Assembly: GCA_019634625.1 (NCBI GenBank)
Contig: JAHCBA010000008.1
Span: 62,001-126,000, forward strand
Direction of reading: 5' to 3'
Origin: Verrucomicrobiia bacterium
GTDB taxonomy: Bacteria; Verrucomicrobiota; Verrucomicrobiia; Limisphaerales; CAIMTB01
DNA length: 64,000 nucleotides
The position numbers and the translations under genes are program-made. Each line of letters opens with the position of its first letter. Position 1 is the first letter of the stretch. Below, piece by piece: positions 39,547 through 41,928 of this stretch. The notes under the pieces are model-generated. The model saw only the letters and a list, made by a program, of their open reading frames with translations. It had not been told where the DNA came from and searched no databases.

Positions 39547-39927
39547 TCAATGCCAGCTCAGAATGCCCTTGAGCCACGCCCAGACCAAGCCTTCGGCCAG
39601 CAAAAGCAGAAACACCGCCATCGCCACCACCGCCCCCAGGGGCAAGCCGCTGTACGCCGCCGCAAAGGGGATCAGGAAGACGCTCTCCACGTCGAAAACC
39701 AGAAAAACGATGGCGTAGAGATAGTAATCCACGCTCTGGTGGCTTCCCGGATTCCCCGCCGATTCCAGACCGCACTCGTAATTGGCCGTCTTCACCGGCC
39801 CGCCCTTGGCTGGCGAAAAGACCCGCGCCCACCACCACGCCAGAACCAGCGGCACCACCCCCATGGCGATCGCCATCGCGGTGAAGGTCACCACGACATG
39901 AAACGGAAACGCGGATGGCGGTTCCAT
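39547..39927 (-). CDS. nuoA: NADH-quinone oxidoreductase subunit A
   Basis: A 126-residue membrane subunit of complex I with three membrane helices. The conserved loop is [12 protein letters not shown] and the second helix is [18 protein letters not shown]. First gene of the nuoABCDI run. Start ATG 39927; the alternative TTG at 39933 adds two residues. The palindromic repeat array begins about 155 bp upstream. Confidence 0.95.
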
Positions 39928-40083
39928 GGCCAAGACCTAGCAAGCGGGGCTCCAGATGGGAAGCCAATCGTCATCGTGTCGCGCGGAAGCGCTGCACAGC
40001 CCAACAGCGCCGTCCACGACGATGGTCCCTTTGGCATTCCCCTTTCTTCTCCGTGCCTTTGTGCCTCCGTGAGAGGCATCATT

Positions 40084-40754
40084 CGTTGGGTGTCCACGCT
40101 TCAGCGTGTCGGGGTGCTTGGGGGGCTCACGCTGAAGCGTGTACATCCAGCCGTCCTGGCGGAACGAGGACGTGGGGGCTCAGGGTTGGCCGCCCTTCGT
40201 TGGGTGTACACGCTTTAGCGTGTCGGGGTCGTTTGGGAAGCTCACGCTGAAGCGTGTACACCCAGCCGTCCTGGCGGAACGAGGACGTGGGGGCTCAGGG
40301 TTGGCCGCCCTTCGTTGGGTGTACACGCTTTAGCGTGTCGGGGTGGCTGGGGGGCTCACGTTGAAGCGTGTACATCCGGCCGTCCTGACGGAACGAGGAC
40401 GTGGGGGCTCAGGGTTGGCCGCCCTTCGTTGGGTGTACACGCTTTAGCGTGTCGGGGTCGTTTGGGAAGCTCACGCTGAAGCGTGTACACCCATCCTTGG
40501 CGGTGCGAGAACGTGGGGGCTCAGGGTTGGCCGCCCTTCGTTGGGTGTACACGCTTCAGCGTGTCGGGGTCGTTTGGGAAGCTCACGCTGAAGCGTGTAC
40601 ACCCAACCGTCGTTGGCGGTGCGAGGACGTGGGGGCTCAGGGTTGGCCGCCCTTCGTTGGGTGTACACGCTTTAGCGTGTCGGGGTGGTTGGGGGGCTCA
40701 CGTTGAAGCGTGTACATCCGGCCGTCCTGACGGAACGAGGACGTGGGGGCTCAG
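40084..40754. repeat. BIME-like tandem array of REP palindromes (six units)
   Basis: Unit starts (CGTTGGGTG) lie at 40084, 40198, 40313, 40427, 40539 and 40655, so units are 112-116 bp. Each has a left palindrome (ACACGCTTTAGCGTGT or close), a 17-21 nt linker and an inverted second palindrome (CACGCTGAAGCGTGTACACC), so a unit can also fold as one ~60-nt hairpin. Two linker types, TCGTTTGGGAAGCT and TGGTTGGGGGGCT-like, alternate (B-A-B-A-A-B). The rest of each unit is CGGAACGAGGACGTGGGGGC then TCAGGGTTGGCCGCCCTTCG. Frames through it repeat the same nonsense peptide. The interval 39928-40083 before it holds only the nuoA upstream region. Confidence 0.9.
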
Positions 40755-40780
40755 AATACCCTCTTCCTGCCCCCGCCCCA

Positions 40781-40936
40781 CAATTCTGGCAGCCCGACTA
40801 CTTCGACCGCACCATCCGCAATCAGGACCACTTTCGGCGGATCGTGCGCTATATCGGGAACAACCGGGTGAAATCCGGCCTGGTATGCACCGCGCAGGAG
40901 TGGGCGACGAGCAGCGCTCGCTACCGTGGCTGCCAT
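40781..40936 (+). pseudogene. C-terminal remnant of a REP-associated tyrosine transposase (RAYT, IS200-like)
   Basis: About 52 codons read QFWQPDYFDRTIRNQDHFRR, then IVRYIGNNRVKSGLVCTAQE and WATSSARYRGCH. This is the typical C-terminal end of RAYT/Y1 transposases ([FW]W[QE]..YFDR.IR[DN]..H....RYI..NPVKAGL...). The N-terminal catalytic part, with its HUH and Tyr motifs, is absent: the frame begins where the repeat array ends (40754). It cannot be functional. Array and remnant together suggest that the transposase gene was once next to the repeats it mobilised. Confidence 0.85.
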
Positions 40937-41029
40937 GACTCCCACAAGTTGCCCCAGATCCCCCGGTGCCAATCCTAGCCGGATCCCACCTGTCCCCCCT
41001 TCCGCTCTCCCCCCCCTCCGACCCGCACC

Positions 41030-41327
41030 CCGCGGACAAGGCTGTCCGCGCTCCGAACACCTGCGATCACCCCCACTCGCAATAGCGAGCCCCACTCCCC
41101 ATACCCCGCCTCCCCTCGCAATGCTCCCCACTCCATGCGGGAGCGCGGACAGCCCTGTCCGCCCTTCCCACCTCCAACCCGCACCCCGCGGACAAGGCTG
41201 TCCGCGCTCCGAACTCCTGCGATCACCCCCGTTCCCATTAGCGAGCCCCACTCCCCCCACCCCGCCTCCCCTCGCACTGCTCCCCACTCCATGCCGCACC
41301 CCGCGGACAAGGCTGTCCGCGCTCCGT
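41030..41327. repeat. Second REP-like class: GCGGACA-AGGC-TGTCCGC palindromes in two ~155-bp repeats
   Basis: Direct copies of CCGCGGACAAGGCTGTCCGC lie near 41031, 41187 and 41302; an inverted copy (GAGCGCGGACAGCCCTGTCC) is at 41141. Each palindrome is followed by GCTCCG. The spacers between them are also repeated: CTGCGATCACCCCC, AGCGAGCCCCACTCC, CCCCGCCTCCCCTCGCA and CTCCCCACTCCATGC occur twice in the same order. No protein is encoded. Confidence 0.85.
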
Positions 41328-41336
41328 AAAAGCGAA

Positions 41337-41360
41337 AAGGCCGCCCGGAAGGGCGGCCTT
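41337..41360 (-). terminator. Rho-independent terminator of the PEP-CTERM gene
   Basis: A perfect 10-bp stem, AAGGCCGCCC/GGGCGGCCTT, with a 4-nt loop, followed on the minus strand by TTCGCTTTTA. It lies 23 bp past the stop at 41383. Confidence 0.85.
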
Positions 41361-41382: not shown

Positions 41383-41928
41383 TTACTTCTTGCGACGAAC
41401 GAGCAGCAAGCCCGCGCCGAGAAGACCAAGAGCGGCGATGGAAGGCTCGGGGATGACTTGAGAAACCTCAAAGCCTGTCATTCCGGTAAGAACAGCCGGA
41501 AGGCTTGGAGGAGTACCCGCACCGCCCGTCGCCACGGTCACTGTCGCGGATTGACCGACACCACCCAGATCGAGGGCTTGAGCCGCTTCCCAACTCGTCA
41601 CGCCCAGATCGGCGTGCCAGACGCGAAGCACGACATCCGCTTGGGAACCCGGTGCCACGCCCGCAACCACCGTATCGGGCACAGCCAAGGTGAAGCCGGC
41701 ATTCGCGCCGCTACGGAAGTTGACCGGCGCACCAATGGCCGTCAACGCACCCCCGGCAGGACCCGCATAGTACTGAGCCCACGCTGCAGTACCGGCAATG
41801 CGCTCACCGTTGTAGGTCACCGGCGCCTCGAACACGCCCACCGAACGGTTGGCGAAGTTCACCGTTCCCTGGCCATAAGCAGCGGCACCCGCCAGCAGCG
41901 TAGCCACAATAATCGCAGTGTTTTTCAT
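41383..41928 (-). CDS. PEP-CTERM sorting domain protein
   Basis: A 181-residue exported protein. Signal MKNTAIIVATLLAGAAAYGQ; body rich in Gly/Ala with beta strands (GTVNFANRSVGVFEAP, ADVVLRVWHADLG); C-terminal PEP-CTERM: PEPS, a membrane helix (IAALGLLGAGLLLV) and RRKK. It is probably processed by an exosortase (not in this window) and sorted to the surface or matrix. AAGGAG lies 12 bp before the ATG. GC is lower than in housekeeping genes. The short N-terminal words GTVNFAN are common in this group of Verrucomicrobia. Confidence 0.88.
   Translation of the reverse strand: MKNTAIIVATLLAGAAAYGQGTVNFANRSVGVFEAPVTYNGERIAGTAAWAQYYAGPAGGALTAIGAPVNFRSGANAGFTLAVPDTVVAGVAPGSQADVVLRVWHADLGVTSWEAAQALDLGGVGQSATVTVATGGAGTPPSLPAVLTGMTGFEVSQVIPEPSIAALGLLGAGLLLVRRKK

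Follow-up and report, generated by a model that had tools for sequence, protein, structure and literature searches.

The window, meaning the whole stretch of 64,000 nucleotides analysed here, covers positions 62001-126000 of contig C8 in a draft genome of 6.74 Mb (88 contigs, 97% complete). Within it, the roughly 1.4 kb between nuoA (NADH-quinone oxidoreductase chain 3; 39550..39933, minus strand) and a PEP-CTERM-like gene (41383..41928, minus strand) forms a repeat island composed of an array of palindromes, here termed P1, a fragment of a REP-associated tyrosine transposase (RAYT) and a cluster of a second palindrome, P2. The array lies upstream of nuoA, separated from its start by about 150 bp, and on the opposite flank the PEP-CTERM-like gene is followed by a terminator-like hairpin at 41337-41360. 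The closest named public contigs for the nuoA protein are Verrucomicrobiales MAGs, at 76%, 71% and 58% identity. Because one relative (L258) has the matching gene order on both sides and none of P1, P2 or RAYT in between, the island is best regarded as a lineage-specific gain; a second relative (L259) also lacks P1 at its nuoA site.

The P1 array (40082..40754, plus strand) is BIME-2-like, with six units of 112-116 bp that each contain two inverted CACGCTTYAGCGTG palindromes, and Tandem Repeats Finder describes it as 5.9 copies of a 115-bp period with 90% matches. Its twelve 14-bp P1-type palindromes make six inverted pairs, the partners lying 33-34 bp apart and the units 112-116 bp apart, while the whole window holds 14 P1 matches with up to two mismatches, against 3.1 expected, a number reached in none of 100 shuffles. 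The sequence-only reading that preceded this work was therefore right about the six units, their inverted palindromes and the end of the array at 40754; of the two alternating linker types that it also described, the two types stand but the strict alternation does not, the inner spacers running in the order A-B-A-B-B-A. A representative P1 BIME is that of unit 2 (40199..40264, plus strand), consisting of a GTTGGGTGTA tag, a palindrome, a 20-nt spacer and the inverted palindrome with its tag, which is able to form a long hairpin (DNA fold -24.8 kcal/mol, z -7.7); for the array as RNA, the predicted fold has a z of -15.4.

P1 is far from confined to this locus, its core CACGCTNNAGCGTG occurring at 154 sites on many contigs of the window's own 6.7-Mb genome, with 0 for a reversed-pattern control. 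Conservation extends past the palindrome (5' GTTGGGTGT in this genome), and a GGTGT tag stands outside it in 98-100% of 51 own-genome copies and in 94-100% of the copies at the P1-flanked RAYTs of other genomes described below; the tag is positioned as in REPs, with letters other than the GTAG of the type families. Many other loci carry the 115-bp unit together with its outer linker, either as a lone inverted pair or in arrays of 2-7, long matches to it being 73-88% identical. BIMEs are 93.5% identical within arrays and 86.8% between loci, which fits a process in which single BIMEs spread and arrays then grow locally. Across the order the distribution is patchy: other families have up to about 60 sites, and the four congeners (G001-G004) have 0 or 1 loose match each, the form CACGCTTYAGCGTG being absent from all four. 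Inverted pairs, dispersed copies, a tag and RAYT partners elsewhere all bear out the earlier proposal that the array units are REP/BIME elements, and the palindrome does differ, as proposed, from the enterobacterial REP.

Beyond the array lies a 26-bp junction (40755..40780, plus strand) in which no similarity to RAYT or REP was seen, and then the RAYT remnant itself (40781..40978, plus strand, stop codon included; FWQPDYFDRTIRN...SARYRG...). That a RAYT C-terminus begins at 40781 had been recognised by eye, and its frame indeed aligns to NF047646 (REP-associated tyrosine transposase) over that model's C-terminal positions 103-144 with an E-value of 1.9e-10, the score of 40.8 bits falling below the 80-bit cut-off because only a fragment remains. 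The predicted catalytic-tyrosine region is retained, while the HUH half (PNHVH in the related L199) is missing, and since just the C-terminal part is present we regard the remnant as a pseudogene fragment. We take its RYIGNN segment to hold the catalytic tyrosine, from the alignment of a relative to TnpAREP and from general knowledge of these enzymes. An intact relative (G050:C180) matches TnpAREP (PDB 4er8) at E 5e-9, and G050 encodes a 279-aa RAYT whose C-terminus shares 61-62% identity with the remnant and whose gene is surrounded by five P2 palindromes. More generally, its best matches include P2-flanked RAYTs within the first five (62%, 56% and 54% identity), and there is no P1-clade member among the best 60 matches listed. 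An open frame at 40685-40978 connects the last array unit to the RAYT C-terminus with no stop in between, and is probably a chance product of GC-rich DNA.

On the far side of the remnant is a P2 cluster that the earlier note did not contain (41011..41325, plus strand), in which four GCGGACANNNNTGTCCGC palindromes (at 41032, 41145, 41188 and 41303) carry GGAGC tags and lie inside a 156-bp unit that is repeated 1.8 times. Four P2 palindromes at 41032-41320 compare with 0.09 expected, and the first lies 54 bp past the remnant's stop codon. P2 is also dispersed, with 48 sites in the genome at up to one mismatch, and GGAG is common to the window copies and those of the remnant's RAYT clade. In a quick tree of 59 RAYT rows, which carries a long-branch warning for L062 and L142 and in which the short remnant fills 26% of columns, the remnant groups at 99% SH-aLRT with exactly four others (L199, L200, L201 and L208), all of them P2-flanked, and the REP-class labels need 4 changes on the tree against a mean of 13.3 when shuffled. 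By position and phylogeny, P2 is the REP that goes with the RAYT clade of the remnant. The remnant is flanked by P2 on its 3' side, as are its relatives, and has lost its 5' side; remnant and P2 cluster together make up what is left, at the 3' half, of a P2/RAYT unit that has decayed.

P1 has its partners elsewhere. When 320 genomes of the order were searched with a RAYT from G028, about 20 full-length relatives were recovered at approximately 48-71% identity, and the search for full-length RAYTs beside the palindrome was successful at five loci in other genera (L230, L231, L234, L235 and L236, in genomes G075, G095, G100, G285 and G068). Neither of the two outcomes that the earlier note named as counting against it, a palindrome limited to one locus or no full-length RAYT next to it in any relative, was therefore obtained. 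P1 lies on both sides of the gene in four of the five, with flanking copies in inverted orientation at L230, L234, L235 and L236, and at L234 and L236 no more than about 20-25 bp separate the start codon from the nearest copy; G068 and G285 have four P1 sites each, all at the RAYT locus. The five genes constitute one clade with 100% SH-aLRT, whose family alignment matches E. coli TnpAREP (PDB 4er8) at E 2e-7 and of which the two members tested score 71-72 bits against NF047646, just below the cut-off of 80. Because P1 adjoins a clade of full-length RAYTs in five genomes, it is, as judged from sequence, a true RAYT-paired REP, and the array in the window consists of BIMEs of this class, the REP of a RAYT clade different from that of the remnant and found in other genera of the order.

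A P1-clade RAYT was not found in the window's own draft assembly (88 contigs, 97% complete), in which P1 has nonetheless spread to about 150 palindromes. The gene there that comes closest lies on C13, a RAYT with an E-value of 1.5e-20 against the profile and 34% identity to the protein from G028; a repeat other than P1 surrounds it, and P1 is near none of the other RAYT-like genes of this genome at any locus, the intact RAYTs on C13 and C31 included. These two (L061 and L062), the best own-genome RAYTs against NF047646, each lie within long arrays of a distinct repeat, which brings the REP-like families of the genome to at least four. A set of more than 20 similar Y1 transposases of about 340 aa (L031-L060 and L065-L078), many ending at contig ends, was rejected as P1's RAYT; no P1 or P2 was found near these copies, which seem to belong to an IS200/IS605-like insertion sequence present in many copies and breaking up the assembly. 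A P1 site about 900 bp from a RAYT in G020 (L142) was likewise judged a chance association, with an estimated probability of about 9% given 24 P1 sites and six RAYTs in 5 Mb. A sister RAYT, L150 (G028:C46), is flanked by a related REP class, noted there and among the P1 sites of G028 and G013, with a GTTGGAGTT tag and several hairpin stems of the CACGCT, AAGCTT and CAACCT types; this suggests that stems were switched under a conserved tag.

We consider it very likely that two unrelated REP/RAYT systems have come to be juxtaposed in one intergenic space. The sequence-only reading had instead taken the array and the adjoining remnant for a single REP/RAYT pair, the array having either taken the place of the N-terminal half of its own transposase or extended into it. 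The direct abutment across 26 bp, the open frame that joins the last unit to the RAYT C-terminus and the published occurrence of RAYT 3' ends in BIMEs (PMC2817692) would all suit such a pair, but in every case seen the clade of the remnant is flanked by P2 and never by P1, P2 stands on the remnant's other side, and the partners of P1 form a different clade, which together largely refute this account. More room can be given to the possibility that a P1 BIME inserted into the P2 RAYT and that amplification or deletion then removed the 5' half, an order of events that is compatible with juxtaposition and adds to it. Just 26 bp lie between the end of the array and the point of truncation, and REPs inside genes are known (PMC3733652), but both the 5' half of the RAYT and P2 are absent from the array's far side, so a simple insertion is not what is seen and a deletion would also be needed, and no intermediate strain was seen; we hold this sequence of events to be conceivable, with the balance somewhat against it.

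The position of the array about 150 bp upstream of nuoA, the strong folds of the BIME as DNA (z -7.7) and of the array as RNA (z -15.4) and the binding of gyrase and IHF to enterobacterial BIMEs (cited in PMC2817692) might alternatively point to a host element retained for an effect on nuo transcription or chromosome structure. This is improbable, however, as the site is not conserved (both L258 and L259 lack P1), P1 units occur at many other loci, palindromes alone account for strong folding and a search of the region gave no promoter-like match; an effect of the array on nuo was set aside on the first of these grounds. What does speak against juxtaposition by mere chance is that only 26 bp separate the end of the P1 array from the remnant, a closeness with a probability of about 1e-3, or 1e-2 if REPs are only intergenic (a rough estimate from some 75 P1 clusters in 6.7 Mb), and this low value leaves room for a mechanistic link such as insertion near another REP or capture. 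Horizontal gain of P1 is suggested by the finding of its RAYT carriers in other genera while four congeners lack both REP and RAYT. An extension of this idea, to which we give little credence, is that P1 multiplied and built arrays without a RAYT of its own after such a gain, mobilised in trans by, for example, the distant C13 RAYT, and that it inserts preferentially in or beside other REP/RAYT units, thereby silencing a competitor.

RAYTs cut tagged single-stranded hairpins, an activity that we carry over from the literature to the P1 and P2 classes. Under the juxtaposition of two systems, a P2/RAYT unit would have inserted in the space that separates nuoA from the PEP-CTERM-like gene and then lost its 5' half, and a P1 BIME would have landed beside it, transposed as a single strand by a RAYT of the P1 clade that acted in trans. 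Local amplification to six units could have followed through RAYT-driven rolling-circle copying or through slippage and unequal recombination, and the P1 RAYT may later have been lost, or may lie within an assembly gap. The island would then be non-autonomous selfish DNA.

The juxtaposition seen in the window is a new case of a published type of system. Inverted REPs on either side of RAYT genes, BIMEs that have incorporated the 3' end of a RAYT and hybrid BIMEs that combine the REPs of two RAYTs have all been described (Nunvar 2010, PMC2817692), and the BIME-2 and REP/REPIN systems with RAYTs (PMC2817692; Bertels and Rainey 2011, PMC3116915) share with P1 inverted REP pairs, tandem units, high copy number, a conserved tag outside the palindrome and a matching RAYT flanked by inverted copies. 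They differ in having a GTAG tag, in place of GGTG (P1) or GGAG (P2), whereas here the units are long (112-116 bp) with a common outer linker, the RAYT fragment next to the array is one of the other REP class and the RAYT of P1 was not found in the assembly. Within the phylum, REP enrichment is described for Opitutus terrae in a study that sorts REPs by GTAG and CGTC tags (Di Nocera 2013, PMC3733652); its GTAG REPs, in O. terrae and other PVC bacteria, resemble the present ones as verrucomicrobial REP families with some RAYT-containing units ('REPtrons'). REP classes that are overabundant without a cognate RAYT are known from pseudomonads and stenotrophomonads (Nunvar 2013, PMC3686654), being likewise present in many copies in genomes whose relatives have the RAYT; here, in contrast, the RAYT carriers are in other genera of the order and four congeners lack REP and RAYT alike. 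Neither P1 nor P2 was found named in the main texts of the literature consulted.

Position and phylogeny thus link two REP classes to two RAYT clades in a verrucomicrobial order that has been little studied. The locus also carries a caution, namely that contact between a RAYT fragment and a REP array does not make the two partners. This genome has about 150 P1 palindromes, no P1-clade RAYT was found in it and its congeners have neither, which makes it a usable case for studying how long REPs persist beyond their transposase.
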